Below, piece by piece: positions 7,696 to 33,484 of a DNA stretch of 36,260 nt. Source of the stretch: Rhodospirillales bacterium (GTDB lineage: Bacteria > Pseudomonadota > Alphaproteobacteria > Rhodospirillales > Magnetospirillaceae); assembly GCA_014379805.1 (NCBI GenBank), contig JACMLB010000312.1:1-36260 (forward strand), read 5' to 3'. The position numbers and the translations under genes were made by a program. How positions within the stretch are numbered: the first letter of the stretch is position 1; each line of letters begins with the position of its first letter. Below the pieces are notes generated by a model. It was not told where the DNA came from, ran no database searches, and was given only the letters and a program-made list of their open reading frames with translations.

Positions 7696-7711
7696 AAAAA
7701 AGGATGCAGTG

Positions 7712-8644
7712 ATGACGCCGTCTCGGGGGAAATATACGGTTGAAGACTTCTTGGCAGCCTTCGGCGCCGACGCAGGCGACCGCGATTTAATCGCCGCCGA
7801 GGCCGGTGCCTACGATTTCTCCTATTCCCGCCTGAGCCAGACCGAACGCGATGCGGTCATCCTGGGCATCCTGGAGCGGCTGGACAGCTTCACCCAAGTG
7901 GGTGCGGGCCGCGCCGGCATCTGGGAAAGTGCCTGGTCCGATGTGGCCAAGCGTTATGCCGACAGCGGCGACGATCTGGCCTCGCTGGACCCGCCCTTCA
8001 TGGGCGCCACGCCGGTTCTGCGCCTGGGCGGCGATTACGCCCGCCCCGACATGGCCGCCTTTGAAACCCATTGGTTCCGGGTGCTGCGCCGTTGGCTCTT
8101 GAACAAATATCTGGTGGGCGCGCGCCGGGTCTGCGAATTCGGCTGCGGCAGCGGCTTCAATCTGGTGACCCTGGCGCAAATGTCGCCGGCGACTGAACTG
8201 GTGGGCCTGGATTGGTCGCAATCGGTGGTAGATTTGATGAACCGCATCGGCCGCGGGCACGGCTTCAACCTGACCGGCCGGCGTTTTGACTTCTTCAACC
8301 CCGACCCGGATTTCGCCTTCGGCGGCGCCACCGATGTGGCCATGACGTTCTGTGCCCTGGAACAGACCGGCGACCGGTTTGGGACCTTCGTGGACTGGTT
8401 GATGGCGCGCAAACCCGGCCTTGTCGTCAGCATGGAACCGGCACTGGAGCACTACGACAATTCCACCCTGTTCGACCATCTGGCGGTGCGTTACCACACC
8501 GGACGTAAATATTTGAACGGCTATTATACCCGCATTCAGGAATTGGAAGCGGCAGACCAAGCCGAAATCCTGGTGCGCCGCCGGCTGGGCTTCGGCTCGC
8601 TGTACCATGAGGGGTACTCACTGCTGATCTGGCGCCCCAAGTAA
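7712..8644 (+). CDS. Class I SAM-dependent methyltransferase
   Basis: Motif I VCEFGCGSGFNLVTLAQM...LVGLDWSQSVVDLM; AAAGGA RBS ahead of ATG 7712. Confidence 0.85.
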   Translation: MTPSRGKYTVEDFLAAFGADAGDRDLIAAEAGAYDFSYSRLSQTERDAVILGILERLDSFTQVGAGRAGIWESAWSDVAKRYADSGDDLASLDPPFMGATPVLRLGGDYARPDMAAFETHWFRVLRRWLLNKYLVGARRVCEFGCGSGFNLVTLAQMSPATELVGLDWSQSVVDLMNRIGRGHGFNLTGRRFDFFNPDPDFAFGGATDVAMTFCALEQTGDRFGTFVDWLMARKPGLVVSMEPALEHYDNSTLFDHLAVRYHTGRKYLNGYYTRIQELEAADQAEILVRRRLGFGSLYHEGYSLLIWRPK

Positions 8645-8655
8645 GTAGAAGAACC

Positions 8656-8675
8656 GTCTCGCAAGAATGCGGGAT
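8656..8675. repeat. Short intercistronic palindrome (stem GTCTCGCA / loop AGAA / TGCGGGAT)
   Basis: 8-bp stem including G-T wobbles between the methyltransferase stop and the radical SAM RBS. Confidence 0.5.
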
Positions 8676-8696
8676 GACAACAGGGAGAAACCTGAA

Positions 8697-9884
8697 ATGA
8701 AGGTCTTCGTAAAGGGCCTGAACACCTGCCCGCAGCGCAACCAGAAAATGGATCAGTACCTGACGTTCCTACGCGGCAACGGCCATGACATCGTTGCCAC
8801 TGCGGAGGAGAGTGACAGCATCCTGGTCTGGACCTGCGGCTTCCGCGGCGACGTGCGCGACAACAGCCTGGAGCAATTGTCAGCGTACAATGCCGACCAC
8901 AAAGGCAAGGTTATCGCCACCGGCTGCCTGCCGCAGATTTCGCCCACCCTGCTGGCCGAAACCTTCGACGGCGACATCGTCGCCTGGACCGACGAGGCCG
9001 TGGAGATGGAGCGCCGTTTCGGCACCGGCAAGTTGAGTCTTGCCGAGGCGGAGAGCATCTATACCAAAGCTGCGCTGTGCACGGATGCCGCCCAATTCCG
9101 CAGCGACAACCCGGAAGCGGACGCCATCTTCCATGATCAGTTCCTGCAGCTGATGATCGCCGAGGGCTGCCCGTTCAAATGCACCTATTGTTCGGAACGT
9201 CTGGCCTTCCCCCGCTTCCGCAGCTTTCCCGAACAGGATCTGATCGATGCCGCCGTCGCCAAAATGGGCGAGACCGGCCATTACGACCTGATGCTGATCG
9301 CCGATTGCCTGGGTGAATACGGCAAGGATACCGGCACCAGCTTGGCCAAGCTGGTCCGCCGGCTGGCGGAAATAGAACCGCGCATGCGGGCCGCCTTCAG
9401 CAATTTCCACCCCTTAGACTTTTTCGAAGATTTGGACAATTACCTCGCTTTGATCCGCACCGGCCACATCCACCACCTGAACCTGCCCATTCAATCGGCC
9501 AATGACCGGGTGCTGAAATTGATGGCCCGGCAGTACAGCAAGGCGCAGATCGAACATTGCTTCGGCCGGCTCAACCAGTTGGGCTTCACGGAATTCGATA
9601 CCCACGTGATCGTCGGCTTCCCCGGCGAGACCGATGAAGAATTTGAGGAAACGGTGGATTTCCTGCTGACCTACCGCCCCAAACACGTATTGCTCAGCCA
9701 GTTCATGGATTGCGAAGATGCCGCCGCCGGACGCCTGCCCGGCAAGGTGACGCCCGAAATCATGCGGCGGCGCAGCGACATGGCCGAAGCCCGCCTGCGC
9801 GAAGCCGGCATCTTGTGTAACAATGAAGGCAGCGAACTGATCCAGGAGCGGCTGCGCCGGCTCAATCAGGCCAGCCAGCTGTGA
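8697..9884 (+). CDS. Methylthiotransferase-like radical SAM protein without TRAM domain
   Basis: N-terminal MTTase Cys set (GLNTCPQRN, VWTCGFRG, ATGCLPQ) and radical SAM GCPFKCTYC; ends shortly after the core. Good RBS (AGGGAG) before ATG 8697. Confidence 0.85.
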   Translation: MKVFVKGLNTCPQRNQKMDQYLTFLRGNGHDIVATAEESDSILVWTCGFRGDVRDNSLEQLSAYNADHKGKVIATGCLPQISPTLLAETFDGDIVAWTDEAVEMERRFGTGKLSLAEAESIYTKAALCTDAAQFRSDNPEADAIFHDQFLQLMIAEGCPFKCTYCSERLAFPRFRSFPEQDLIDAAVAKMGETGHYDLMLIADCLGEYGKDTGTSLAKLVRRLAEIEPRMRAAFSNFHPLDFFEDLDNYLALIRTGHIHHLNLPIQSANDRVLKLMARQYSKAQIEHCFGRLNQLGFTEFDTHVIVGFPGETDEEFEETVDFLLTYRPKHVLLSQFMDCEDAAAGRLPGKVTPEIMRRRSDMAEARLREAGILCNNEGSELIQERLRRLNQASQL

Positions 9885-11221
9885 CACCTGCGGCAACGGC
9901 CTTTACCGAGGGAAACCGCCTGCGCGACCTGGGCCACCCGGCCCAGGCCGCCGCGCTGTATCGGCGCGCCCTCGCCGCCGATCCGGCCCATGTGGAAGCC
10001 CACCGCAACCTGCTGCTGAGCCTGCTGTTCTCGCCCGAATCCCACAATGCCGAACGTTTCGCCGAACATCGGCGCTTCGCCGAAAATTTCGCGCCCGCTG
10101 CCGTGGCGGCCCATGACAACTGCCCCGATCCCCACCGGCGCCTGCGCATCGGCTACCTGTCGTGCCATTTCGCCGGCAATCCGGTGGGACGCGCCGTTGA
10201 ACCGCTGTTCACCCATTGCGACCGCAAGGCCTTCGCCCCGTTCTGCTACGCCGAGCTGGACCGCCCCGATGGCCTGAGCGCCCGCTTCCGCTCCCTGGCC
10301 GAGGGCTGGCGCGCCATCGATGGCCTGAGCGACGCCCAGGTGACCCAGGCAATCCGTGACGACGGCATCGATATTCTTGTCTGTCTGGCCGGCCATCTGG
10401 ACCGCAACCGCCCCCTGGTGGCGGCTTACCGCCCCGCCCCCATCCAAATCAGCTATCACGACGCCGCCACCAGCGGGCTGGACGCCATGGATTACCTGCT
10501 GACCGATGGGGTGCTGTCGCCCCGGGACGTCAGCGAGCGCTTCACCGAACGCCTAATACGGCTACCGGTGCTGGCCTATATGGCCCCGCCGGCGGGCGCC
10601 CCCGAATGCGGCACGCGCGCCGCCGGCCCACTAATGTTCGGCTGCTTCAACGCCCCGGCAAAGCTATCGCCCCCGACGCTGGAGGCGTGGGCGGCACTGC
10701 TGCACCGGGTTCCCCATTCGCGCCTGCTGCTGCGTTTCCGCGATGCCTTCGCCGATCCGGCGCTACGCCGACAATTGCACGATTTCTTCGCCGGACGCGG
10801 CATTGGCGCAGACCGGCTGGACCTGCGCGGCGACTGTGGCGCGGACCACCCGTTGGCCATTTACCGCGAGGTGGACATCACCTTGGACCCCCATCCCTTC
10901 TCAGGCTCCACCGTGACATTCGAGTCCCTGTGGATGGGCGTTCCGGTGGTGAGCTGGCCCGGTGATGCCATGGTCGGGCGGTGGTCGGCGGCGCTGCTGG
11001 GCGCCGTCGGATTGCGCGACCTCATCGCCTCCGGAGCCGAAGATTACGTGGCGCGCGCCGCCGCCCTGGCGGCCCAATCGGAGCGACGGGACGCCTTGCG
11101 CGCCGATCTGCGCCCGCGCATTGCCGCGTCATCCCTGTGCGACGGTCCCGCCAAGACCCGCCAAATCGAACGGCTTTACCGCGCCTTCTGGCGCCGCTGG
11201 TGCAACGAGCGTACTGTCTGA
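9881..11221 (+). CDS. SPINDLY/OGT-type glycosyltransferase (GT41) with minimal TPR
   Basis: TPR-like GNRLRDLGHPAQAAALYRRALAADPAHVEAHRNL, then RRLRIGYLSCHF...DDGIDILVCLAGHLDRNR...PAPIQISYHDAATSGLDAMDYLLTD; GTG start in GTGA overlap. Confidence 0.85.
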   Translation: MTPAATAFTEGNRLRDLGHPAQAAALYRRALAADPAHVEAHRNLLLSLLFSPESHNAERFAEHRRFAENFAPAAVAAHDNCPDPHRRLRIGYLSCHFAGNPVGRAVEPLFTHCDRKAFAPFCYAELDRPDGLSARFRSLAEGWRAIDGLSDAQVTQAIRDDGIDILVCLAGHLDRNRPLVAAYRPAPIQISYHDAATSGLDAMDYLLTDGVLSPRDVSERFTERLIRLPVLAYMAPPAGAPECGTRAAGPLMFGCFNAPAKLSPPTLEAWAALLHRVPHSRLLLRFRDAFADPALRRQLHDFFAGRGIGADRLDLRGDCGADHPLAIYREVDITLDPHPFSGSTVTFESLWMGVPVVSWPGDAMVGRWSAALLGAVGLRDLIASGAEDYVARAAALAAQSERRDALRADLRPRIAASSLCDGPAKTRQIERLYRAFWRRWCNERTV

Positions 11222-11224
11222 GCC

Positions 11225-13207
11225 ATGATCCGGGAGCCAGTGATGGAAGAAACTTTCACGGTTGGTCTGGTGCAGATCAACAACAGCTTTTCCGGCCAGA
11301 GCTATCTGCCGTATTCGGTGGCCTGCCTGGAAGGATATGTGCGCCGCCATGCCGCCGCGCCGTCCCGCTACCGCTTCCTGCTGCCGGTCTACAAACGGGT
11401 GCCGGTGCACCAGGCGGTCAGCCAGTTGATGGACGCCGATCTGGTGGCGTTCAGCACCTATGTGTGGAACGGGCGCATCTCGCTGGAAATCGCGCGGCGC
11501 CTGAAGGCGGCCAAGCCGGGCATCATCATCGTCTTCGGCGGCCCCCACGTCCCCGATGCCACCGAGGCCTTCCTGCGCAGCCACCCCTTCATCGACGTGG
11601 CGGTAAACGGCGAGGGCGAGCAGGCGTTTTTGAACCTGCTGGAGGCCATGCCCAAGGGCGAGTGGGGCGGCATCCCCGGACTCAGCCGCATCGACGCCCA
11701 GGGGCGCTTTATCCAGAACCCCAAGGGCTCGCGTCTGCGCGATCTGGCCGACCTGCCCTCGCCCTTCCTGGAGGATTTGTTCACCCCGCTGATGCAGGCT
11801 AATCCGGATGAAAGCTGGATCGGGCTATGGGAAACCAATCGCGGCTGCCCGTTCCAATGCACCTATTGCGACTGGGGCTCGGCCACGGCAGCCAAGCTGG
11901 GCAAGTTCGAAATGGACCGCCTGCTGGCCGAGGCCGAATGGTTCTCGCGCCACCGCATCGAGTTCATCTTCTGCTGCGACGCCAATTTCGGCATCCTGCC
12001 CCGCGACATCGATCTGGCCGAATGCGTCGCCAAGCTGAAACGGGAAACCGGCTTCCCCAAGGCGCTGTCGGTGCAAAACACCAAGAACGCCACTGAACGC
12101 GCCTATGCCACCCAGAAGATCCTGTCCGATGCCGGCCTGTCCAAGGGCGTGGCGCTGTCCATGCAAACCTTGGATACCGGAGTGCTGAAGGCCATCAAGC
12201 GCGACAACATCTCGCTGGATACCTATCTTGAACTCCAGCGCCGCTTTACCCGCGACCGGGTCGAGACCTTTTCCGACCTGATCCTGGGCCTGCCCGGCGA
12301 GACCTACGAATCCTTTATCGCCGGTATCGACACGCTGATCACCACCGGCCAGCACAACCGCATCCAATTCAACAATCTGTCCATCCTGCCCAACGCCGAG
12401 ATGGCCGTTCCGGTCTATATGGCCGAACACGGCCTGGTCACCATCGACAGCGAAATCATCAACATCCACGGCTCCCGCATTACCGGCAAGGACGACGTGG
12501 CAGAAGTACAGCAATTAGTAATCGCCACCGCCAGCCTGCCACGGGATGACTGGCGCCGGGTCCGCGCGGTCAGTTCCATGACCGCCTTCCTGCATTTCAA
12601 CAAGCTGTTCCAGATCCCCTTGATCCTGGCCCACGAACTGTCCGGCCTGCCCTACCGCACCATGATCGAGGCGTTCATGGGGGCCGAGGCCGAACGTTAT
12701 CCGCTGCTGGCCGAGATCCGCGATTTCTTCCTGGAGGAGGCGGCCACCATCCAGCAGGGCGGGCCGGAATATCACTATTCCGAGGAATGGCTGGGCATCC
12801 ACTGGCCGGCGGACGAATACATGTTCATCAAGCTGGCCGCCGAGAACCAGTTGGACCGCTTCTATGACGAGGCGCGCCGCCTGTTGTTCACCCTGGCCGA
12901 CGATTTGCCCGCCGGCCCGCTGGAAGACGGTGTGCGGCTGAACCGGGCGTTGATCAAGCAGCCCTTCGTGACGGACGACATCACCATCACCTTGGGCCAC
13001 GACGTGCGCTCGTTCTGGAACGCCGTGCGCCAAGGCGATAGCGAGCCATTGCGCCAAGGGCCGGTGACGGTGGCCATCGACCGGTCGTCGTCCTATTACG
13101 GCGACCTGCAGGACTGGTGCCGGGAAGTGGTGTGGTGGGGCAACAAGAAGGGTGCCTATCTCTACACCAACCAAGTGGTGGAAAAGCAATTGGCCGGCCA
13201 TTTCTAG
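11225..13207 (+). CDS. B12-binding-domain radical SAM protein (copy 1)
   Basis: N-terminal B12-binding-like fold (LVAFSTYVWN...IIIVFGGPHVPDATEAFL...VNGEGEQAF) and radical SAM CPFQCTYCDWG. Confidence 0.88.
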   Translation: MIREPVMEETFTVGLVQINNSFSGQSYLPYSVACLEGYVRRHAAAPSRYRFLLPVYKRVPVHQAVSQLMDADLVAFSTYVWNGRISLEIARRLKAAKPGIIIVFGGPHVPDATEAFLRSHPFIDVAVNGEGEQAFLNLLEAMPKGEWGGIPGLSRIDAQGRFIQNPKGSRLRDLADLPSPFLEDLFTPLMQANPDESWIGLWETNRGCPFQCTYCDWGSATAAKLGKFEMDRLLAEAEWFSRHRIEFIFCCDANFGILPRDIDLAECVAKLKRETGFPKALSVQNTKNATERAYATQKILSDAGLSKGVALSMQTLDTGVLKAIKRDNISLDTYLELQRRFTRDRVETFSDLILGLPGETYESFIAGIDTLITTGQHNRIQFNNLSILPNAEMAVPVYMAEHGLVTIDSEIINIHGSRITGKDDVAEVQQLVIATASLPRDDWRRVRAVSSMTAFLHFNKLFQIPLILAHELSGLPYRTMIEAFMGAEAERYPLLAEIRDFFLEEAATIQQGGPEYHYSEEWLGIHWPADEYMFIKLAAENQLDRFYDEARRLLFTLADDLPAGPLEDGVRLNRALIKQPFVTDDITITLGHDVRSFWNAVRQGDSEPLRQGPVTVAIDRSSSYYGDLQDWCREVVWWGNKKGAYLYTNQVVEKQLAGHF

Positions 13208-13208
13208 C

Positions 13209-14183
13209 ATGCGGACCAATCCCCTGGGCCGCACAGGCCTGACCGTCTCGGCCATCGGTTTCGGCGCCTGGGGCATCGGCGGCCATACCGAGGGCGGCGG
13301 CCGGTCCTACGGCAGCACCGAGGACAGCGTCTCGGTGGCGGCGCTGGAGGCAGCCTTCGATGCCGGCGTCACTTACTACGACACCGCGCCGCTTTATGGC
13401 CTGGGCCACAGCGAGGAATTGATCGGCGCCACCTTCCACGGCGCGCGGCGCGACCGCGTGGTGATCGCCACCAAGGTCGGCTATGGCGACTTCACCACGC
13501 CACCCGATTTCACCCCTGCGGGCATCCGGCACTCGGTGGAGGCCAGCCTGCGCCGGCTGCGCAGCGAGCGCATCGACCTGCTGCAATTGCATGATTGCGA
13601 TCCCGGCCATCTGGCCGCTCACCCCGATATCCTCGACACTTTGCAGACACTGCGCCAGGAAGGCCGCATCGCCGCCATCGGCGCCAGCGTCAAAAGCCCG
13701 GCGGACGCCCTGGGATTGCTGCAAGACAGCGTGGTTCAGGTCATCCAGGCCAATTTCCACATGCTCGATCTGCGGGCGCTGGATTGCGGCCTATTGGCAT
13801 TGGCCGAGGCCCAGGGCGCGGCCATTGTCGCCCGCACGCCGCTGTGTTTCGGCTTCCTGACCGGCCGGCTGACCGGCGACGAGGTCTTTGCCGCCGACGA
13901 CCACCGCTCGCGCTGGCCGCGCAGCCAGTTGCGCGCCTGGGCCGAGTCCGCCCGCACCCTGCTGGAAATCGGCGAACCCGGTGACGACGGCACCTCCACG
14001 GCATTGCGCTTCGTGTTGTCATTCCCCGCAGTGGCAACGACCATTCCCGGCATGCTGAACCCTGCCCAGGTGGCCGAGAACACGGTAGCCGGCAAATGCC
14101 CGGCCTTGCCCCCCGCCGCCCTGGCCGAGGCCTTACGCCGCAGTCACGCTTTGGCTGACCGGCTGAAAGGGAACAGCCCATGA
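13209..14183 (+). CDS. Aldo/keto reductase
   Basis: MRTNPLGRTGLTVSAIGFGAWGIGG...FDAGVTYYDTAPLYGLGHSEELIG...RIDLLQLHD. Confidence 0.92.
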   Translation: MRTNPLGRTGLTVSAIGFGAWGIGGHTEGGGRSYGSTEDSVSVAALEAAFDAGVTYYDTAPLYGLGHSEELIGATFHGARRDRVVIATKVGYGDFTTPPDFTPAGIRHSVEASLRRLRSERIDLLQLHDCDPGHLAAHPDILDTLQTLRQEGRIAAIGASVKSPADALGLLQDSVVQVIQANFHMLDLRALDCGLLALAEAQGAAIVARTPLCFGFLTGRLTGDEVFAADDHRSRWPRSQLRAWAESARTLLEIGEPGDDGTSTALRFVLSFPAVATTIPGMLNPAQVAENTVAGKCPALPPAALAEALRRSHALADRLKGNSP

Positions 14184-14914
14184 GCGACGGATTGCGCGAG
14201 ATCGACGTGGTCGTGCTGGCCGGCGGGCTGGGCACCCGCCTGCAAGGGGTGCTGGGCGATGTGCCCAAGGTGCTGGCCCCCATCCATGGCCGCCCGTTCC
14301 TGGACCATCTGGTGGACTGGCTGGCCGGCTTCGGCGCCCGCCGCGTGGTGCTGTGCCTGGGCCATCTGGCCGACAAGGTGGTGGCCCATGTGGCGAGCCG
14401 CCCTAATCCGCTGGACATCGTCCCCGTGATCGAGCCCCAGCCCCTGGGCACCGCCGGGGCGCTGCGGCTGGCGCGGCCGCAATTGACCAGCGATCCGGTG
14501 CTGGTGATGAACGGCGACACTTGGCTGGAGGTGGATCTGGCCGCCTTCGCCCAACGCCACCTGGCGGCGGGTTCCTTGGTTTCGCTACTCTGTGTCCAGG
14601 TAGAGTCCGCCGCGCGCTACGGCAGGGTCGAGGTGGATGACCGCAATCACGTGACCCGCTTCGTGGAAAAGGACCCGGATCATACCGGCCCCGGCATGGT
14701 CAGCGCGGGCATCGCGCTGTTCGCCGTCCAATTGCTGGACCGGCTGGAAGTCATGCCGGGGCCGTCGCTGGAGCGCGACGTCCTGCAACAATTGCCGCCG
14801 GGCAGCATCCGCGCCGATCTGGTTCCCGGCGCCTTCATCGACATCGGCACCCCGGACAGCCTGCGGGCGGCGCCGGAGGTGATCCCGGAGATCAAGCCAT
14901 GCGCGTCCTGGTAA
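14180..14914 (+). CDS. Sugar-1-phosphate nucleotidyltransferase (HddC/mannose-1-P guanylyltransferase-like)
   Basis: VVVLAGGLGTRLQGVLGDVPKVLAPIHGRPFLDHLVDWL; ATGA overlap. Confidence 0.85.
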   Translation: MSDGLREIDVVVLAGGLGTRLQGVLGDVPKVLAPIHGRPFLDHLVDWLAGFGARRVVLCLGHLADKVVAHVASRPNPLDIVPVIEPQPLGTAGALRLARPQLTSDPVLVMNGDTWLEVDLAAFAQRHLAAGSLVSLLCVQVESAARYGRVEVDDRNHVTRFVEKDPDHTGPGMVSAGIALFAVQLLDRLEVMPGPSLERDVLQQLPPGSIRADLVPGAFIDIGTPDSLRAAPEVIPEIKPCASW

Positions 14915-15942
14915 CCGGCCATCTCGGCTATGTTGGCCCCATCGTGCTGCGCCAGCTTAAAGAGGCCGGCCATTGGGTCGCCGGCCTGGATTGCGGCTAT
15001 TTCCGCGACTGCACCGATGCCCATGCCGCCCTGACCCGCCCCGACCGCGAATGGATCGCCGACATCCGCGACATGGGCGCCGAAGTGGTGCGGGGAATGG
15101 ACGCCGTCATCCATCTGGCCGGCCTGTCCAATGACCCGATGGGTCAGTTGGACCCCGGGTTGACGGCGGCCATCAACCACCGCGCCACCATCCGCCTGGC
15201 ACGGATGGCCCAAGACGAGGGCGTGGGGCGCTTCATCTTCGCCTCCTCGTGCAGCCTTTACGGCGCCTCGGGCGATGCCGCCCGCCCGCTGGACGAGGAT
15301 GCTCCGTTGGCCCCGGTCAGCGCCTATGCCCGGTCCAAGGCCGATTGCGAGACCGATCTGGCGGCGCTGGCCACCGGCGGGTTCGCCCCCTTTTCCCTGC
15401 GCTTCGCCACCGCCTATGGGCTCAGCCCACGCATGCGCCTGGATCTGGTGCTCAACAATCTGACCTCGTGGGCGCGGGCCACCGGGGTGGTGCGGGTCAT
15501 GTCGGACGGCACGCCGTGGCGCCCCCTGGTTCATATCGAGGACATGGCCCAGGCCATGCTGTGCGCCCTGACCGCCCCGGTGGGCGAACGGCGCGCCTTC
15601 AATGTGGGCCGCGACGACGACAATTTGCGGGTGGCGGAAATCGCCGACATCGTCAGCCGCCAAATTCCCGGCAGCCGGGTCGAGATCACCGGCGATGCCG
15701 GCGGCGATCCGCGATCCTATCGGGTGGATTTCAGCCGCGTCAGCCAAGGTCTGCCCGGCTTCGCCCCCCGCTGGTCGGTGACCGCCGGCTGCGAGCAGAT
15801 CGATCGCTGGCTGTGCGACCGCAAGCTATCCACCGCCCATATTCAATCGCGCCACTTCGTCAGGCTGGGACAATTGCAGCATTTACGCAAAGGCGGCGTC
15901 ATCGATGACGGATTGCGGCTGATGGATGTATTGGCATGCTGA
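14899..15942 (+). CDS. NAD-dependent sugar epimerase/dehydratase (extended SDR)
   Basis: MRVLVTGHLGYVG Rossmann motif; ASSCSLYGASG and YARSK (YxxxK). Confidence 0.9.
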   Translation: MRVLVTGHLGYVGPIVLRQLKEAGHWVAGLDCGYFRDCTDAHAALTRPDREWIADIRDMGAEVVRGMDAVIHLAGLSNDPMGQLDPGLTAAINHRATIRLARMAQDEGVGRFIFASSCSLYGASGDAARPLDEDAPLAPVSAYARSKADCETDLAALATGGFAPFSLRFATAYGLSPRMRLDLVLNNLTSWARATGVVRVMSDGTPWRPLVHIEDMAQAMLCALTAPVGERRAFNVGRDDDNLRVAEIADIVSRQIPGSRVEITGDAGGDPRSYRVDFSRVSQGLPGFAPRWSVTAGCEQIDRWLCDRKLSTAHIQSRHFVRLGQLQHLRKGGVIDDGLRLMDVLAC

Positions 15943-17939
15943 TCTATCTGGCCGACCCCATTCACACCTATATGGGAACGAAGGACACGTCCTTCATTCC
16001 CCTGGGCGTCCTGAACATCGCCGCCTATGCCAAGCTGCAATTGGGCGACCGGATCGAGATCGAGGTGTTCAAATTCCCCGAGCGCATCCTGGACGCCATC
16101 GATCGGCGCCCGCCCGATGTGATCGGCGTGTCCAACTATGTCTGGAACTACCACCTCAGCAAGACGATCCTGGCCCATGCCAGGAAATACAATGCCGACG
16201 TGGTCACCGTCATGGGCGGCCCGAACGCCACCCTCACCGCAAGCTCCATGGCACGCTTCCTGGCTGATGGCGTGGTTGATTTCTACGTCCAGGACAATGT
16301 TCTTGGCGGCGAGAAGCCCTTTGTCAGCCTGATCTCGGCACTGATGTCCGGACGGTCAGGCCTGCCTAAACACAAGGATCTGCATGGCGTCACCTTCCTG
16401 GACCGCGACACCGGCACGATCCGCGAGATCAAAGCCAATGTCGCGGACGACACCCTGGAATGGCTGCCCTCGCCCTTCGAGATGGGTCTGGTGGATGAGT
16501 TTTTCGACGACGGCCTGAGGGCCATGATTTCCACCAACCGGAACTGTCCGTTCCAATGCACCTTCTGCGTCTGGGGCAACGCGTCCAAAGTGCTGCACTC
16601 CAGCGTGGCGCGGGTGATCGCCGACCTTGATTATTGCAGCACCCATGCGAAGCAGGGCCTGCTGATGATTACCGACGCCAATTACGGGCTGTTCAAGACC
16701 CGTGATCTGGAGATCGCCCGGCATATCAGGAAACTGCATCACGAACGCCAATGGCCCACCTCCATCGTCGTCAATTGGGGGCAGGTACGCTCGGAAACCG
16801 CCGTCGAGGTGGCGGATGAACTGAAAGGCATTACGCTTCTACGGCAATCCTCGCAATCCATGAACGAGGACGTGCTTAAGGCTATCAATCGGAAAAATAT
16901 CCCCGATTCCCAGTGGCGCCATGTTGCCGAGGAATGCCGTCGGGCCGGAATTGAATCATTCGCTGAGCTTATCGTCATGCTTCCCGGCGAAACCCTGGAA
17001 ACATATTTGGATGGCCTGCGTTATTTCTTCAACCTGGGGTTCAGCTGCATCAATACCAATCAGTGCCAGATTCTCGAAGGTGCTGAGATCAACACCTCCG
17101 AGCACCGCGAAAAATATGGGGTGAGGACGGCTTGGCGTCTGCTGGAGGGCGCCTACGGTGTCTACGGCGACTATGTCTGCCTGGAAGCCGAGGAAGTCGT
17201 CATTGAAACCAAGGACTTCACCTTCGACCAAAACGTCAAGGTCCGCATGCTCAACTGGTTGATCCAGATGAGCTGGACGCTGAAGCGGCATGACCTCATC
17301 GTCAAATACGTTCAAGAAAACGGCGTCAACCCGGTCGATTTCTTCCTGGCGGTCATTGCCAACGGGGATTGCGCACCGGAAGGTTTCCGCCAGATCATCC
17401 GGGACTTTGACAAGGATGCCCGCGAAGAACTGTTCCCGACCTATGACGCCCTTCATGGGCATTATTGCCAGGAAGATCGGCTGAGCAGCCTTTCCGAGGA
17501 CGGGTTCAAGAAGCTCAATACATTTTATTCGGGCATCGCCCTTGAACTCAACGATGATATTTTGACGTTCTATCGTGAGATTGCCCGAAAACTGCTGCCG
17601 GACCTTCCCGCCGGTGTGCTGTCGGATTGCGCGGACTTCCTTACAGCGCGCAGCCTGACCGTGGAGGACCTCATCACAACAGGCGACATCGCCCATAAGA
17701 AGAAGCGTTTCGCCCATGATTGGGTGAGCTGGGACCGCGACGTCGAGCGCCGCCCCATCGCCGCCTTCCGCAGCGAAGTGGGGCACACTTTCACCTTCAC
17801 CGCCGGCGAGGACCAGAAGACGGCGATCCGGGCTTTTGTCGCCGCCATGTCCGACAAGGGGCGGAACTACAAGATGAAGAAGCTTTGCGAGCCCTATTAC
17901 GGCATCCGCAAAGAGTACCTGAATTACGTAATCGCCTGA
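15936..17939 (+). CDS. B12-binding-domain radical SAM protein (copy 2)
   Basis: VIGVSNYVWNYHLSK...VVTVMGGPNATL; CPFQCTFCVWGNASK; same domain order as 11225..13207. Confidence 0.87.
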   Translation: MLIYLADPIHTYMGTKDTSFIPLGVLNIAAYAKLQLGDRIEIEVFKFPERILDAIDRRPPDVIGVSNYVWNYHLSKTILAHARKYNADVVTVMGGPNATLTASSMARFLADGVVDFYVQDNVLGGEKPFVSLISALMSGRSGLPKHKDLHGVTFLDRDTGTIREIKANVADDTLEWLPSPFEMGLVDEFFDDGLRAMISTNRNCPFQCTFCVWGNASKVLHSSVARVIADLDYCSTHAKQGLLMITDANYGLFKTRDLEIARHIRKLHHERQWPTSIVVNWGQVRSETAVEVADELKGITLLRQSSQSMNEDVLKAINRKNIPDSQWRHVAEECRRAGIESFAELIVMLPGETLETYLDGLRYFFNLGFSCINTNQCQILEGAEINTSEHREKYGVRTAWRLLEGAYGVYGDYVCLEAEEVVIETKDFTFDQNVKVRMLNWLIQMSWTLKRHDLIVKYVQENGVNPVDFFLAVIANGDCAPEGFRQIIRDFDKDAREELFPTYDALHGHYCQEDRLSSLSEDGFKKLNTFYSGIALELNDDILTFYREIARKLLPDLPAGVLSDCADFLTARSLTVEDLITTGDIAHKKKRFAHDWVSWDRDVERRPIAAFRSEVGHTFTFTAGEDQKTAIRAFVAAMSDKGRNYKMKKLCEPYYGIRKEYLNYVIA

Positions 17940-19008: not shown

Positions 19009-19818
19009 ATGGGCGAAGAAATCGCCTTGCCGCCGGGAATGCAGGCGGTCATCCTATGCGGCGGCCAAGGGACGCGGCTGCGCGAGGAAACCGAATTCAA
19101 GCCCAAGCCCATGGTGTCCATCGGCCCCCATCCGATCCTGTGGCACATCATGCGTCACTACGCGTCCTTCGCCGTGAAGGATTTCATTCTTTGCCTGGGC
19201 TACAAAGGCGAGATCATCCGCGATTACTTCCTGAACTATCGTGCCCATACCCAGGACGTTTATCTGGACCTTGGCCAAGGCACCGTCGAGGCGCTGCCGC
19301 GCGAGATCAGCGAGCCGATCGATTGGCGCGTGATGCTGACTAACACCGGGCTGGACACCATGACCGGCCGCCGCGTGCTGACCGCTTTGGAGCATGTGGA
19401 GGGCGAAACGTTCTTCGCCACCTATGGCGACGGCGTCGCCAACGTGGATTTGTCCGCATTACTTGCCCATCACCGCTGCATGGGCAAGCTTGCCACCGTT
19501 ACCGCCGTCCATCCCGCCGCCCGCTTCGGCGAGATGAGCCTGCGGGATGGTCTGGTCACCAGCTTCACCGAAAAGCCCCAGGTGGCTGAAGGCTGGATCA
19601 ATGGCGGCTTTTTCGTTTTCGAAAAACGCGCCTTCGCCGATCTGCCGGCACGCGACGATCTGATCCTGGAGACCGACGTGCTGGAACGCCTGGCCGCCAA
19701 CGGACAACTGGCCGTGCATCGCCATGAAGGGTTCTGGCAATGCATGGATACCTTCCGGGAAATGCAATTGCTGAACACCCTATGGTCCCAAGGAAGAGCG
19801 CCCTGGAAAACATGGTGA
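19009..19818 (+). CDS. rfbF: Glucose-1-phosphate cytidylyltransferase
   Basis: MQAVILCGGQGTRLREETEFKPKPMVSIGPHPILWHIMRHYASF...FFATYGDGVANVDLSALLAHH...EGFWQCMDTFREMQLLN; near full-length RfbF pattern. Confidence 0.92.
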   Translation: MGEEIALPPGMQAVILCGGQGTRLREETEFKPKPMVSIGPHPILWHIMRHYASFAVKDFILCLGYKGEIIRDYFLNYRAHTQDVYLDLGQGTVEALPREISEPIDWRVMLTNTGLDTMTGRRVLTALEHVEGETFFATYGDGVANVDLSALLAHHRCMGKLATVTAVHPAARFGEMSLRDGLVTSFTEKPQVAEGWINGGFFVFEKRAFADLPARDDLILETDVLERLAANGQLAVHRHEGFWQCMDTFREMQLLNTLWSQGRAPWKTW

Positions 19819-20966: not shown

Positions 20967-21913
20967 CGGTGTTTCACTGCGTCATCGGCGCTGGCTATGC
21001 CCGCCCCTATTCCCGCACCGTGCCCGCCGCGTTGCGGCGCTGCGCCAGCCCGTTCATCCTGCTATCGCGCGAGGGGGAGCAAGTAAACCCTGAGGCTTTG
21101 GACGAGGCCGTCGCCACCCTTGAGGGCAACCCCGCCGCCATGGCCGCGCTGGGCGGCCTAGGCGACGGCTTGGTGGGCGACGCGCACGGGCTTTTCCACC
21201 TGTTCACCCGCCATCTGGTCCTGCCGGCCATGCTGGTGCGGCGCGAGGCCTGCCATCGTGCCCTGCTCCCCATGCCCGTGGGCCTGCCGGACCAGTGGCG
21301 CAGCTTGGCCGGTCTGGCCCGGCTGGGTCCCATCGCCCTGGCCTGCGCTCCCCTGTGCCGCCCCATGGCGCCATGGCAGCGATTGGGCCGGCTGGAGGAG
21401 ATTGAGGATTTGGACGATTTCCTCGCCGACCAGCAATCCTTCGCCGCCCTTGCCAGCCGCTTGGAAACCGGCCCGAGCATGGACCATTGGCGGCAGGCCT
21501 TGGACCAGCAGCGCGCCGCCGGGCTGGTGCTGGCCGCCGAGGCATGCCGCGCCGCCGGTACATTGGCCCTGGCCGAGGACATGCTGGCCCGTGCCAAAGT
21601 CTGGGCGCCCGCCACCCTGCCGCCGCAAGACAATGAGGACCACTGCCGCATGGCCCTGGATTTGGTGGCTCGGCTGGCGCCCCAACTGGGCGAACAAATC
21701 CGTCAGGTAATGATCGAGGATTCCCTGGCTGCCCTGGTTCCCGCCATGGGCGTGCCCATGCGCCTTGCCCCCAGCGGTGAGATGGCGGCCCATCCGCCCA
21801 ATTCCAGCACCGTCCTGGTCTTCGACCGTGCCGCCACCGCCCAAGAGCGCCGCCGCCGCACGGGCGGTGTCTGGGCAGGGTTCCAATTCGCGCTGGAGGA
21901 TCTGACATGGTGA
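20963..21913 (+). CDS. Hypothetical protein, possibly a degenerate GT2-like protein
   Basis: SPFILLSREGEQVNPEALDEAVATLEGNPAAMAALGG lines up by eye with the GT2 neighbour's TPYMLVIGDDDAICPQALLHVIGLLESDPSLSAVYGS, but the acidic DxD-type motif is absent. Confidence 0.6.
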   Translation: MTVFHCVIGAGYARPYSRTVPAALRRCASPFILLSREGEQVNPEALDEAVATLEGNPAAMAALGGLGDGLVGDAHGLFHLFTRHLVLPAMLVRREACHRALLPMPVGLPDQWRSLAGLARLGPIALACAPLCRPMAPWQRLGRLEEIEDLDDFLADQQSFAALASRLETGPSMDHWRQALDQQRAAGLVLAAEACRAAGTLALAEDMLARAKVWAPATLPPQDNEDHCRMALDLVARLAPQLGEQIRQVMIEDSLAALVPAMGVPMRLAPSGEMAAHPPNSSTVLVFDRAATAQERRRRTGGVWAGFQFALEDLTW

Positions 21914-23136
21914 CCGCACTGGGCTGCCGTTGCTGCGGCGGGAACGATTTTCTGCCGGTGGTGGATTTGGGCCAACTCCCCCTGGCCAACCGCCTTCCCC
22001 GTACGGCGGAGGAGATCGAAGCGCGCTATCCGCTGGCGGCGGTGGCCTGCCGCACCTGCCGGCTGGTGCAACTGACCCACGCCGTGCCGCCCGCCCTGGT
22101 TTTCGCCGACTACCCCTATTTCTCGTCCTATTCGTCGTCCTGGGTGGAGCACGCCCGCCGCTACGCCGAATCCGCAACGGGGAAACTGGGTCTCACCGCC
22201 GCCAGCCGGGTGATTGAGGTGGCCAGCAACGACGGCTACCTGCTGCGGCACTTCCAGGCGCAAGGCATCCCGATGCTGGGGATCGAACCCTCCGACACGG
22301 TTGCCGCCGCCGCCACTGCCGCCGGCATTCCCACCCGTGTGCAATTTTTCGGCCGCCATACGGCCCTGTCCCTGCACGCCGAGGGACTGACCGCCGATCT
22401 GCTGGTGGCCAACAACGTGCTGGCCCATGTCCCCGATTTGCACGATTTCGTCGCCGGCCTCGCCGTCCTTTTGGCGCCACAAGGGGTGGCGACGCTGGAA
22501 TTCCCCCATCTGCTGCGGCTGGTCGCGGACGTGCAGTTCGACACCATCTATCACGAACACTATTCCTATTTCTCGCTGCTGGCCGCCGAGCGGGTCTTGT
22601 CCACGCATGGGCTGGCGGTGTTCGACGTGGAGCAACTGCCCACCCATGGTGGCTCGCTGCGCCTGTGGGTGCAGCACCGGACGGCCAGCCATCCGCAAGG
22701 TGCCGGTCTGGCCCGCCTGCGCGAGGATGAGCGCCTTGCCGGCCTGCACACCGACGCCTTCTACGAAAATTTCAGCCGCCAGGTCGCCGGCTGCATGGCC
22801 GGCCTGCGGACCTATCTGACCCAAGCCCGGCAAGACGGCCGCCGGGTTGCCGCCTATGGCGCCGCCGCCAAGGGAGCCACCTTGCTGGGGTGCTGCGGCG
22901 CCGGGCCGGACACCATCGCCTTCGTCGCCGATCTCAACCCGGCCAAACAGGGCCGCTTTCTACCCGGTACCGGCATCCCCATCGTGTCCCCCGAACATTT
23001 GATGGCGGCGCAGCCCGACGACGTGCTGATTCTGCCCTGGAATCTGGCCCGCGAGATCAGCGGCCAATTGGCCGGCATCCGCGCCTGGGGCGGACGGCTG
23101 ATGGTGCCGCTGCCCGACGTGCAGGTGCTGCCATGA
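21907..23136 (+). CDS. NDP-hexose C-methyltransferase-like SAM methyltransferase
   Basis: N-terminal zinc-type Cys (CRCCGG...CRTCRLVQL), VIEVASNDGYLLRHFQ, YHEHYSYFSLLAAERV, C-terminal VAAYGAAAKGATLL; the architecture of TylCIII/TcaB9-type enzymes. Confidence 0.85.
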   Translation: MVTALGCRCCGGNDFLPVVDLGQLPLANRLPRTAEEIEARYPLAAVACRTCRLVQLTHAVPPALVFADYPYFSSYSSSWVEHARRYAESATGKLGLTAASRVIEVASNDGYLLRHFQAQGIPMLGIEPSDTVAAAATAAGIPTRVQFFGRHTALSLHAEGLTADLLVANNVLAHVPDLHDFVAGLAVLLAPQGVATLEFPHLLRLVADVQFDTIYHEHYSYFSLLAAERVLSTHGLAVFDVEQLPTHGGSLRLWVQHRTASHPQGAGLARLREDERLAGLHTDAFYENFSRQVAGCMAGLRTYLTQARQDGRRVAAYGAAAKGATLLGCCGAGPDTIAFVADLNPAKQGRFLPGTGIPIVSPEHLMAAQPDDVLILPWNLAREISGQLAGIRAWGGRLMVPLPDVQVLP

Positions 23137-23663
23137 TCTTCCACCCCATGGAACTGGACGGCGTGCTGCTGGTGGAAACGCCGATCCACGGCGACGAGCG
23201 CGGCACCTTCACCCGCACCTTCTGCCGCAAGAGCTTCGCCGCGCACGGACTGGAACTGCCCAACGAGCAATGGAGCGTGTCGGGCAACCCGTTGCGCGGC
23301 ACCTTGCGCGGCCTGCATTACCAGGCCGACCCCCATGGCGAAACCAAGTTGGTGCGCTGCGCCCGGGGCGCTGCATTCCACGCGGCGGTGGATATGCGCC
23401 CGCACTCGCCCAACTTGGGCCGCCATGTAACGGTGGAATTACGACCCGAACGGCCAATCATGCTGTACGTTCCGCGCGGCTTCGCCCACGGCTTCTTGAC
23501 GCTGGCGGACGACACGGAAATAGTATATGGAATTACTCCAGAATACATGGCCGATGCTGCCCGCGGTTTGCTGTGGAACGACCCTGATATCGGCATAAGC
23601 TGGCCGTTTCCACCTCTAATCATCTCCGAGCGTGACACTCGGCTACCCCGCCTGTGGCCCTAA
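23133..23663 (+). CDS. rfbC: dTDP-4-dehydrorhamnose 3,5-epimerase family protein (RmlC/RfbC-like)
   Basis: DERGTFTRTFCRKSF, LRGLHYQADPHGETKLVRC, YVPRGFAHGFLTL. Confidence 0.88.
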   Translation: MIFHPMELDGVLLVETPIHGDERGTFTRTFCRKSFAAHGLELPNEQWSVSGNPLRGTLRGLHYQADPHGETKLVRCARGAAFHAAVDMRPHSPNLGRHVTVELRPERPIMLYVPRGFAHGFLTLADDTEIVYGITPEYMADAARGLLWNDPDIGISWPFPPLIISERDTRLPRLWP

Positions 23664-23665
23664 AA

Positions 23666-24847
23666 ATGGAGCGCTCCATGCCCAGCGTCTATTTCGCCCC
23701 CGACGAGATGTGCACCATGCTCAAGCTGGAGGTGCGCCGTATCTACGACTACTTCCTCGCCAATGGCTGGACCGCCGCCGCCACGCCTGAGGAAGCCGAC
23801 AAGGTCATCGCCCCAACCTGCGCCGGTTGGGACAAGCTTGAGACCAACTCGCTCAATATGTTGGCCGCGCTGGCGCCCATGGCGGACAAGGTGGTCGCAC
23901 TGGGCTGCGTCAACACCATGAACTCCAAAGCCATGGCCAAGGTGCATAAGGGCGCCACCATCGCCTCGGTGGCGCTGGACCAGGCCGCCGGGCTGATCCC
24001 CGACGCCAAAGTGGCGCTGGCCGACATCCCCGAGCCCTCCACCTTCCGCTCGAAAGAGGATTATCGGCTTTACGACCTCAGCAAGCGTTTCGTCAACGTG
24101 GCCTTCGGCTGCGCCTTTACCTGCGCCTATTGCCCGCACAAGGTGGGCATCGGCCCGCGTAAAAGCCGCAGCCTCGACAGCATCGTCGATCAGGTCCGTC
24201 AGTTGATGACCGAAGGGGTGCGCATCGTGGTGCTGACCGGCATGGAAACCGGCCTCTACGGCCGGGAAATCGGCACCAATTACGTCGCCATGCTGCGCGA
24301 GGTGCTGGCCGCCGGTGACACCTTCCAAATCCACGTTGCCCAATTCCACCCTTCGGGCATCCGCCAATTCGAGGACGATTTCGCCGAACTGTTCGGCAAT
24401 GCGCGCGTCACCGACGTCCAGATTCCCATCCAGACCACCAGCGCCCGGTTGCTGAAGTTGATGAGCCGCCCGCCCTTGCCCGACGGCTTCGGCGACGTCA
24501 TGCGCCGGGTCAAGGCGGCCAATCCCAAGGTGATCCTGCGCACCGACATCATTGTCGGCTATCCCGGCGAGACCGAGGAAGAACTGAGCCACACCCTGGA
24601 CTTCGTCGAGGACATTTTCGACGAAGTGGCGGTGTACGGCTTTGAGATGAAGGCCGGATTACCGGCGGAACAATTGGCCCACATGGCCATCCCCGATGAT
24701 GAAATCGCCCGCCGCAAGGCATGGGCCACCCAGATGATCACCGCCAAGGGCTGTTTGGCCCATGGCGGACAGCAGGCCGATCTCGATCTGGTAGCGCTGG
24801 AGGAGTTGAAGCAGAACATGCGTCGCAGCAAGAGCCAATTGGCATGA
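23666..24847 (+). CDS. Methylthiotransferase-like radical SAM protein without TRAM domain (copy 2)
   Basis: Three N-terminal Cys (DEMCTMLK, PTCAGWD, LGCVNT), radical SAM GCAFTCAYC, RTDIIVGYPGETEEEL; no TRAM-length tail. Start could also be 23678. Confidence 0.82.
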   Translation: MERSMPSVYFAPDEMCTMLKLEVRRIYDYFLANGWTAAATPEEADKVIAPTCAGWDKLETNSLNMLAALAPMADKVVALGCVNTMNSKAMAKVHKGATIASVALDQAAGLIPDAKVALADIPEPSTFRSKEDYRLYDLSKRFVNVAFGCAFTCAYCPHKVGIGPRKSRSLDSIVDQVRQLMTEGVRIVVLTGMETGLYGREIGTNYVAMLREVLAAGDTFQIHVAQFHPSGIRQFEDDFAELFGNARVTDVQIPIQTTSARLLKLMSRPPLPDGFGDVMRRVKAANPKVILRTDIIVGYPGETEEELSHTLDFVEDIFDEVAVYGFEMKAGLPAEQLAHMAIPDDEIARRKAWATQMITAKGCLAHGGQQADLDLVALEELKQNMRRSKSQLA

Positions 24848-25629
24848 CCGGAGCCTGGCCCAAAAAGGTGGCGGTGGACTTCGCCGCCGCCACCGTGACC
24901 GTCGAGGACGAAACCGGCGAACACACGCTGCCCATGGCCTCGGCCGAGGCATTCGATGCGGTGGCGGCGGCCTATCTGCGCTGCGGCTGGGACACCAAAT
25001 ATGTCTATGGTTTCAGTTGGATGGGCCGGCCTGTGATCCAACTGCCCGACGATCTGATCCGCCTGCAAGAGGTGATCTATGCGGTCAAACCCGATCTGAT
25101 CGTCGAGGTGGGCGTGGCCCATGGCGGTTCGCTGGTGTTCCATGCCGGCCTGTGCCGCGCCATGGGACGGGGCCGGGTGGTGGGCGTGGATATCGAGATT
25201 CGTCCCCATAACCGCAGCGCCATCGAAGCCCACGAACTGGCCGACCTCATCACCCTGATCGAGGGCAATTCCATCGCCGCCGACACCATTGCCGCCGTGC
25301 ACGCCCTGGTGCGGCCGGGCGAGCGCGTGCTGGTGGTGCTGGACGGCCACCACACCCTTGACCATGTGCTGGCCGAACTGGACGCCTATTCACCGCTGGT
25401 GAGTCCGGGCTCCTATATCATCGCCATGGACGGCATCATGCGCCATCTGGTCGGCGCGCCGCGCAGCCGGCCCGGATGGGCCACCGACAACCCCTCCGAG
25501 GCCGCACGCCGGTTCGCCGCCGACCATCCGGATTTCGATCTGGTGGAACCGGAACCGCCCTTCAATGAAGGCATGGTCACTGCCCGCGTCTCCTACGGCG
25601 TGGACGCCTTCCTGCTGCGGTGCCCCTAA
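24844..25629 (+). CDS. CmcI/cephalosporin-hydroxylase-like SAM-dependent methyltransferase fold protein
   Basis: LIVEVGVAHGGSLVFHAGLCRAMGRGRVVGVDIEIRPHNRSAI...VLVVLDGHHTLDHVLAELDAYSPLVSPGSYIIAMD. Confidence 0.75.
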   Translation: MTGAWPKKVAVDFAAATVTVEDETGEHTLPMASAEAFDAVAAAYLRCGWDTKYVYGFSWMGRPVIQLPDDLIRLQEVIYAVKPDLIVEVGVAHGGSLVFHAGLCRAMGRGRVVGVDIEIRPHNRSAIEAHELADLITLIEGNSIAADTIAAVHALVRPGERVLVVLDGHHTLDHVLAELDAYSPLVSPGSYIIAMDGIMRHLVGAPRSRPGWATDNPSEAARRFAADHPDFDLVEPEPPFNEGMVTARVSYGVDAFLLRCP

Positions 25630-25725: not shown

Positions 25726-26628
25726 ATGAATATCAACTTTGACAAACTGACCCAGTCAGGCCAATTCGGCTCCGGACGCGATCCGGCCTATCTTGCCAAC
25801 CTGTTTCTGCGGCTGGTCCGTGACCTGCGCACCTGCACCACGCCGCCCCGGGAGATCCCCGCCGACCAGCGCGACGCCTTCACCATGAACGGCGAGATGG
25901 AGGTCCGCGAGATATGGCGCGACGATACCATCCTGCGCATCGTCAGCGAGCGCGACCCGGCCGAATTGGCAAAGCTGAGCCTGCTGGTCTATGAGCGCGC
26001 CTATGTGGATTCGCTGGTGGCCATGGTCAGGAAAAGCCTGACGTTCCAGTATGGCGTCACTGACCGCTGGCTCTACGCCGCCCTGAAGAATTTCCCGGTA
26101 AGAGACACCGACGTCGCCATCCTGGGCTCGGGATCGCCGGTTTACGAATCCATCACCTTGGCCCATGGCGGCCGGCCTCTGACCGTCGAATACCAGCCGC
26201 GCATTTCGGACCATCCCGACCTGACCTTCATGAGCCCCGACGAGTTCGTGCGTTCGGGTCAGAAAGTGGATGCCGCGTTGTCGATCTCAAGCTTCGAGCA
26301 TGACGGACTGGGCCGCTATGGCGATCCGCTGGACCCCAACGGCGATTTGAAAGCCATGGCCAATCTGAAATCTCAGATGAAGCCTGGTGGCAAGCTGTTC
26401 CTGGCGGTGCCCAACGGCAAAGACGTGTTGATGTGGAACGTCAACCGGATCTATGGCGCCAAGCGCATGCCCATGCTGGTGGATGGCTGGCGCTGTGTGG
26501 CAGCATACGGCCCGCCGCCCGGCGTGCTGACGTCGCTTGATCCGTTCGTGATCGACGAAGACGCATGGAACAACTATTTCGCAACCGACGAATCGTGCCC
26601 GCACTGGCTGTTCGTTCTCGAGGCCTAA
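25726..26628 (+). CDS. DUF268 family protein (copy 2)
   Basis: SSFEHDGLGRYGDPLDPNGDLKAMANL...WNVNRIYGAKRMP; strong similarity by eye to 1537..2448. Confidence 0.8.
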   Translation: MNINFDKLTQSGQFGSGRDPAYLANLFLRLVRDLRTCTTPPREIPADQRDAFTMNGEMEVREIWRDDTILRIVSERDPAELAKLSLLVYERAYVDSLVAMVRKSLTFQYGVTDRWLYAALKNFPVRDTDVAILGSGSPVYESITLAHGGRPLTVEYQPRISDHPDLTFMSPDEFVRSGQKVDAALSISSFEHDGLGRYGDPLDPNGDLKAMANLKSQMKPGGKLFLAVPNGKDVLMWNVNRIYGAKRMPMLVDGWRCVAAYGPPPGVLTSLDPFVIDEDAWNNYFATDESCPHWLFVLEA

Positions 26629-27450: not shown

Positions 27451-27469
27451 GCCCTTGGAGAAAGTTGGG

Positions 27470-32370: not shown

Positions 32371-32401
32371 TTTTGTCGAATATCCGGCAGGTGGAGAAGT
32401 A

Positions 32402-33484
32402 ATGAACGGAGACGGCAAAATGGCGCATTCAATTTTAGAGCGGAAGCCCGCAGTGGATACCAAGACTTCAGCGCCACACCGCTCGCCTGGTTTTTTCACG
32501 TCCCGCACGCCTTTTCGCATCTCCTTCTTCGGCGGTGGCACCGATTATCCTCAATGGTATCGAAACGAGGGCGGTGCGGTACTGTCAACCTCCATCGACA
32601 AGTATTGCTATATCAGTGGCCGCTGGCTGCCGCCCTTCTTCCCCACGAGCTACCGTATCGTGTGGAGCCATATCGAAACCGTCACAAGCGTCTCCGAGAT
32701 TTTGCATCCGGCGGTCCGCCACTGCCTGCGCATGTTCGATTTCGCCGACAACCCCGGGCTTGAACTTCATCACCAGAGCGATTTGCCCGCCCGCACCGGC
32801 GTGGGCAGTTCGTCGGCCTTTGCCGTCGGCCTGATCCGCATCCTGACCGCGTTGCGCTGCGAAACCATGGACAAGTCCGATCTGTACCTGAAGGCCATCG
32901 AGCTGGAGCAGGATTGGATCAAGGACGCAGTGGGCTCGCAGGATCAGGTCGCCACAGCGGTGGGCGGCCTCAACGTCATCCGCTTCGGCCATGACGGCGC
33001 CATCTCGGTCCAACCCGTGCGCATCACCGAATCCCGCCGGCGCGCCTTGGAAAGCCGGCTGATGATGGTCTATACTGGCCTCAGCCGCGCCGGCCCGGAA
33101 CTGGCCCAGCGCATCATCGACAATCTGCCCCAGCGCACCGCCAATCTGCACCGCATGCACGCCATGGTGGACGAGGCGGCGGCCCTGCTGGAAGGCGATG
33201 GCGATCTGGACGATTTCGGCCGCATGCTGGACGAAACCTGGCGGCTGAAGCGGTCCCTGGCCGACCAGATCAGCAACGACCGCATTGATGCCATCTACGC
33301 CGCCGCCAAACAGGCCGGCGCCATCGGCGGCAAGCTGCTGGGCGCGGGCTCGTCCGGATTCCTGCTGTTCTACGTGCGACCCGAATACCAGGATTCCGTC
33401 CGCCAAGCCACCCACCCGCTGCTGGAAGTGCCGTTCCAATTCGACACCCAGGGCAGCGTCATCATGAACAGCGAGTGGCGGTGA
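32402..33484 (+). CDS. GHMP kinase, HddA-like (heptose/sugar kinase)
   Basis: FTSRTPFRISFFGGGTDYPQWYRNEGGAVLSTSIDKYCYI; LPARTGVGSSSAFAVGLI; GGKLLGAGSSGFLLFY. GGAGAAGTA ahead of ATG 32402. Confidence 0.88.
   Translation: MNGDGKMAHSILERKPAVDTKTSAPHRSPGFFTSRTPFRISFFGGGTDYPQWYRNEGGAVLSTSIDKYCYISGRWLPPFFPTSYRIVWSHIETVTSVSEILHPAVRHCLRMFDFADNPGLELHHQSDLPARTGVGSSSAFAVGLIRILTALRCETMDKSDLYLKAIELEQDWIKDAVGSQDQVATAVGGLNVIRFGHDGAISVQPVRITESRRRALESRLMMVYTGLSRAGPELAQRIIDNLPQRTANLHRMHAMVDEAAALLEGDGDLDDFGRMLDETWRLKRSLADQISNDRIDAIYAAAKQAGAIGGKLLGAGSSGFLLFYVRPEYQDSVRQATHPLLEVPFQFDTQGSVIMNSEWR

Follow-up and report, generated by a model that had tools for sequence, protein, structure and literature searches.

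A TRAM-less methylthiotransferase-like radical SAM enzyme, with a second TRAM-less paralog, in a glycan cluster of a Rhodospirillales bacterium

Methylthiotransferases (MTTases) of the MiaB/RimO/MtaB family are three-domain proteins in which the C-terminal domain, TRAM, comprises about 60 residues. The established scheme for these enzymes involves two SAM molecules and two clusters (PMC10702137, PMC5352715), and the known substrates are tRNA A37 and ribosomal protein S12 only (PMC10702137). Methylthio groups are also found on other molecules: a 5-deoxy-5-methylthio-xylofuranose caps the lipoarabinomannan of Mycobacterium tuberculosis (PMC10675199), and ANME-1 archaea contain a methylthiolated F430 for which the responsible enzyme is unidentified (PMC10702137). 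Our literature searches, which were thin on subscription journals, returned nothing on a TRAM-less or a sugar-directed methylthiotransferase. The methylthio group of the lipoarabinomannan cap is not known to come from a radical SAM methylthiotransferase. Here, we describe a TRAM-less MTTase-like protein, together with a second TRAM-less paralog (paralog 2), encoded in a 36,260-nucleotide stretch of a Rhodospirillales contig (JACMLB010000312.1), which is referred to as the window.

The focal gene (8697–9884, + strand) encodes a 395-residue MTTase-like radical SAM enzyme, as assigned by Pfam, alignment and an AlphaFold2 (AF2) model. Its reading frame is open to 9884 from an in-frame ATG at 8667, which would give 405 residues; a start at 8697 (MKVFVKGLN) is more probable, since the alignment to all seven orthologs begins at MKV[FY][IV]KG, and residues are numbered here with M1 = 8697. 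Pfam searches identified Radical_SAM (E = 3.1e-20) and UPF0004 (4.9e-09; 36.6 bits vs a cut-off of 27) and returned no match to TRAM at E values up to 10, in agreement with the domain content proposed in an initial annotation of this DNA. The B12-binding domain PF02310 likewise had no Pfam match in the protein, the N-terminus being UPF0004. The focal protein resembles RimO (4jc0) in the three Cys of UPF0004, the radical SAM core and a full-length fold match, and shares the two-cluster architecture and fold of MiaB, MtaB and e-MtaB (PDB 7mjv, 9a6d); RimO 4jc0 (1.2e-25, best) and MiaB 7mjv are its closest PDB entries by sequence. However, RimO carries a TRAM domain and modifies S12, the other three differ from the focal protein in TRAM as well, and the family scores fall well short of the curated thresholds. 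The best NCBIfam match, TIGR00089 (MiaB/RimO family), reached 181.3 bits, below its cut-off of 251, and the MiaB, MtaB, RimO and e-MtaB equivalog models gave 101–151 bits vs cut-offs of 315–357 (RimO, 146 vs 357).

The motifs LNTC, VWTC, ATGC and GCPFKCTYC that the initial annotation had quoted are all present, and its placement of the three N-terminal Cys as in MiaB/RimO was borne out by alignment with RimO 4jc0 and MiaB 7mjv, in which the CxxxCxxC Cys matched too. The predicted ligands are Cys11, Cys47 and Cys77 in UPF0004, and Cys158, Cys162 and Cys165 in the CX3CX2C motif. All six are invariant in the 42 sequences aligned, which comprise 8 focal-family proteins, 3 of the paralog-2 family and 31 canonical MTTases (MiaB, RimO, MtaB and e-MtaB). 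The UPF0004 Cys are spaced C-X35-C-X29-C, with a second gap slightly short of the C-X35-36-C-X32-33-C of canonical MTTases (PMC5352715), and position 204, a conserved D/N in canonical MTTases, is C or S in the focal family. Given these two deviations, the chemistry of the family could have drifted.

Between the GFPGE motif and the C-terminus, we counted 89 residues in the focal protein and 86–90 across the eight focal-family proteins, compared to 95–106 in the paralog-2 family and 123–151 in canonical MTTases, so that the tail is about 40 residues short of room for TRAM in all orthologs. The AF2 model (pLDDT 87.8, pTM 0.85) places a helix-strand-helix at the C-terminus and contains no beta-barrel. 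In a Foldseek search of the PDB with this model, the best eight matches were all MTTases (MtaB, MiaB and RimO), aligned over nearly the whole chain. We rejected the missing Pfam match as sole proof of TRAM loss, because the organism's own MtaB, a true MTTase, goes undetected by the Pfam TRAM model as well, and therefore argue the loss from tail length and the AF2 model. The short tail, the barrel-free model and the lack of a Pfam match all agree with the claim of the initial annotation that this protein has no C-terminal TRAM domain.

The seven orthologs are 36–70% identical to the focal protein and have a common architecture, with frames of 391–412 residues. Two come from Rhodospirillales MAGs (70% and 66% identical over the alignment), four from Magnetococcales MAGs (36–51%), and one (47%) from a MAG labelled 'Candidatus Methanoperedens' (locus L031, contig JAQUQX010000007.1), in which it lies with a full sugar cluster. 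This archaeal record could reflect horizontal transfer or mis-binning; a UPF0004 search found no other MTTase in the MAG. Canonical MTTases are present in all seven bacterial carrier genomes. The focal gene is rare in the phylum, with a match at 1e-30 in 4 of 398 other genomes, and none of 12 congeners has a match at 1e-25, a distribution that fits a gene of an accessory pathway and not one of tRNA modification. A first class-wide search had recovered chiefly RimO and other full-length MTTases, plus an ortholog of paralog 2. No relatives of the focal protein were found in the viral contigs searched, and the plasmids searched gave RimO-like or weak matches only.

Phylogenies were computed in IQ-TREE (LG+C20) with and without paralog 2. 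MiaB, MtaB, RimO and archaeal e-MtaB each formed a supported clade of their own, named from tree position and, for MiaB and MtaB, also from TIGR01574 and TIGR01579 searches. The focal family formed one clade (100/100 support) on a long stem outside these four, and this clade was retained when the second long branch, paralog 2, was left out. The comparison with MiaB/RimO/MtaB for which the initial annotation had called thus puts the focal protein inside none of their clades, nor in e-MtaB. A sister grouping of the two TRAM-less families (86/75) is not claimed, as the program warned of long-branch joining. The window's genome also carries a separate MiaB (503.9 bits vs a cut-off of 355.3) and a separate MtaB (430.4 vs 357.05). 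The separate clade and the organism's own MiaB and MtaB exclude a placement in a tRNA-modifying clade combined with the lack of a second MiaB. Because the protein is MTTase-like on present evidence, yet lacks TRAM and scores below the curated cut-offs, the focal family is most fittingly treated as a new subfamily within the MTTase superfamily.

Paralog 2, which the initial annotation did not mention, is a second TRAM-less UPF0004 and radical SAM enzyme (23654–24847, + strand; 397 residues from a GTG, with orthologs suggesting a start near 23678). It is 25% identical to the focal protein and keeps all six Cys. Its own small family is distinct from the focal one, and orthologs were recovered from two further genomes, G051 (locus L024) and G375 (L068). 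In L024, the ortholog adjoins a glucose-1-phosphate cytidylyltransferase that is 47% identical to the RfbF of the window (19009–19818, +; 316.3 bits, above the curated cut-off of 300.25). In L068, it lies near a B12-radical SAM gene and near homologs of the window's CmcI/rhamnosyl O-methyltransferase-like gene (24721–25629, +; 65%) and of a methyltransferase (60%). The AF2 model of paralog 2 is of low confidence (pLDDT 69.5), and the terminal barrel is absent from it. TRAM may have been lost twice over, once in each TRAM-less family.

The focal gene sits in a tight same-strand run of eight genes (7709–17939). A SAM methyltransferase-fold protein (7709–8644, +) is encoded directly upstream and co-directionally, and the start of a GT41-like TPR glycosyltransferase gene (9881–11221, +) overlaps the focal stop codon. 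These are followed by a B12-binding radical SAM protein resembling the KedN5 family (11225–13207, +; 269 bits vs a family cut-off of 700), an aldo/keto reductase (13152–14183, +), a sugar-1-phosphate nucleotidyltransferase similar to HddC and mannose-1-P guanylyltransferase (14180–14914, +), an NAD-dependent sugar epimerase/dehydratase of the SDR type (14899–15942, +) and a second B12-binding radical SAM protein (15936–17939, +; 26% identical to the first; 154 bits vs 700). KedN5-type C-methyltransferases are, like the proposed role of the focal protein, radical SAM enzymes of small-molecule tailoring, but they carry a B12-binding domain where the focal protein has UPF0004; the two KedN5-like proteins of the window are probably sugar C-methyltransferases. 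Further along, the window encodes a sugar C-methyltransferase (Methyltransf_13/14; 21907–23136, +), an RmlC-like nucleotide-sugar 3,5-epimerase (22890–23663, +), an HddA-like GHMP sugar kinase (32348–33484, +; 122 bits, under the 600-bit equivalog cut-off) and another RmlC-like epimerase (33488–34000, − strand). Three GT41 (OGT-like) homologs are present in total (9881–11221, 27455–29770 and 29698–32370), one of them with many TPR repeats. Two DUF268 genes (1528–2448 and 25726–26628) flank the cluster at two sides, and their 47% mutual identity suggests a duplication; at the left end of the window, a NUDIX hydrolase gene (229–819) overlaps that of a weak PhyH-type dioxygenase (815–1540).

We compared this neighborhood with those of the seven orthologs (loci L027–L033), counting genes within each fetched stretch. 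A B12-binding radical SAM gene is present in seven of the eight loci (the window, L027, L028, L029, L031, L032 and L033), a Methyltransf_24/TylF-type O-methyltransferase gene in six, a split transketolase in five and an HddA-like kinase gene in four. Orthologs of the KedN5-like protein at 11225–13207 are encoded next to the focal gene in L027 (74% identical), L028 (71%) and L031 (50%), and in L027 a homolog of the aldo/keto reductase (63–64%) lies beside the KedN5-like gene. Homologs of the HddA-like kinase occur in L030, L031 and L033 (50–53%), and the RmlC-like epimerase at 33488–34000 is 65% identical to one in L030. The glycan-cluster setting described for the window therefore recurs around distant orthologs. 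Across whole genomes, the co-occurrence of the focal and KedN5-like genes (the latter in one of four focal-positive genomes and in 5 of 398 overall) was too weak outside the common loci and was dropped as evidence.

The split transketolase is located at 1546–3371 in L028, 6812–8456 in L031, 2372–3995 in L033, 7339–8986 in L030 and about 11190–13019 in L027, and in the sugar clusters of these five loci it is accompanied by an O-methyltransferase; the transketolase pair is not found in the window. Together, the two activities may serve to assemble a sugar that is branched or extended by two carbons. In both L030 and L031, the two transketolase genes (N, then C) are followed by an SDR gene and then, immediately, by the focal gene; an SDR gene is also nearby in L027. 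L031 additionally carries GmhA-like, GmhB and GDP-mannose-dehydratase-like genes. The kinases, transketolases, GmhA/GmhB and related neighbors are together suggestive of an activated heptose or a sugar related to it, the exact sugar being a guess because the kinase scores sit below the HddA equivalog cut-off.

Building on the fold, cluster ligands, TRAM loss, clade and gene context, all as read from sequence and prediction, we infer sulfur transfer, methyl transfer and a sugar substrate for the focal enzyme. On balance, and by a slight tilt of the evidence, we favor a radical SAM member of the MTTase superfamily that has lost TRAM and now serves in the tailoring of nucleotide sugars or glycans, with sulfur insertion. 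In such a reaction, the CxxxCxxC cluster would cleave SAM to yield a 5'-deoxyadenosyl radical, and this radical would abstract a hydrogen atom from one of the carbons in a sugar intermediate. The UPF0004 [4Fe-4S] cluster on Cys11, Cys47 and Cys77 would carry sulfur or methylsulfide, and its capture by the carbon radical would produce a C-SCH3 (or C-SH) sugar. The substrate would most plausibly be a GDP-heptose-type or otherwise branched sugar in the focal branch and a CDP-sugar for the second paralog, and both pathways would also use B12-radical SAM enzymes and O-methyltransferases. A sugar substrate would be without precedent, because the substrates known for MTTases are limited to tRNA A37 and S12. 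More tentatively, and at somewhat less than even confidence, two separate TRAM-less MTTase families may install sulfur on activated sugars through radical C-S bond formation, giving rise to thio or methylthio sugars of surface glycans. The sugar modification suggested in the initial annotation thus gains partial support from the absence of TRAM, the separate clade, the separate MiaB and MtaB and the recurring glycan context; the reaction may be methylthiolation, sulfuration or another one, and the substrate a nucleotide sugar, a lipid-linked sugar, a finished glycan or a protein.

Several features would also be compatible with a focal enzyme that acts on a sugar and leaves no sulfur behind, through dehydration, oxidation, epimerisation or C-C chemistry, which we consider a serious, if rather unlikely, alternative. 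The auxiliary cluster would then bind or electronically assist the substrate, as in MoaA and TYW1, perhaps with the neighboring SDR as a partner, and auxiliary clusters with three Cys ligands are able to function in substrate binding (PMC5352715). The recurring SDR gene next to or near the focal gene and the deviating Cys spacing and residue 204 are consistent with such a role. AprD4 (PDB 6fd2), a radical SAM diol dehydratase that acts on the sugar moiety of aminoglycosides, is among the structural neighbors (TM 0.63), but the fold match is remote, with 12% identity, and AprD4 gave no profile match at E values up to 1. The nearest relatives by sequence and fold, moreover, are all sulfur-inserting MTTases, and the auxiliary Cys lie within the UPF0004 domain and not in a MoaA-type C-terminal motif, which argues for sulfur insertion.

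We regard as improbable a RimO-like enzyme without TRAM that has a protein or peptide as its target, such as a surface or flagellar glycoprotein, alongside the GT41-like glycosyltransferases. The RimO fold does act on protein side chains (PMC10702137), and one of the three GT41-like genes of the window overlaps the focal stop codon. However, most ortholog loci share sugar-metabolism genes with the window but no GT41-like ones, and casual, non-systematic inspection of the loci turned up neither a conserved small ORF nor a precursor. A divergent tRNA or ribosome MTTase that lies in a glycan cluster by chance, with its RNA recognized by the other two domains, is very improbable: although non-TRAM domains contribute to tRNA recognition (PMC10702137), the genome encodes a MiaB and an MtaB above cut-off, the focal clade lies outside every tRNA and S12 clade, and the gene is patchily distributed and keeps its sugar-gene context in distant taxa. 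A degenerating pseudo-enzyme, as the rarity of the gene and the lack of matches in congeners might suggest, is hardly credible in view of open frames of 391–412 residues, six invariant Cys and 36–70% identity across orders and phyla.

If the more tentative reading, with radical C-S bond formation by both TRAM-less families, is true, they would be the first MTTases with a small-molecule substrate and would provide a radical route to sulfur sugars. Sugar-directed activity would bring carbohydrates within the reach of C-H sulfur insertion, would show how the MTTase fold is retargeted upon TRAM loss, and would predict sulfur-bearing sugars on the surfaces of Rhodospirillales and Magnetococcales. 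The TRAM-less enzymes are, in addition, compact natural variants for studying the division of work between the two clusters.
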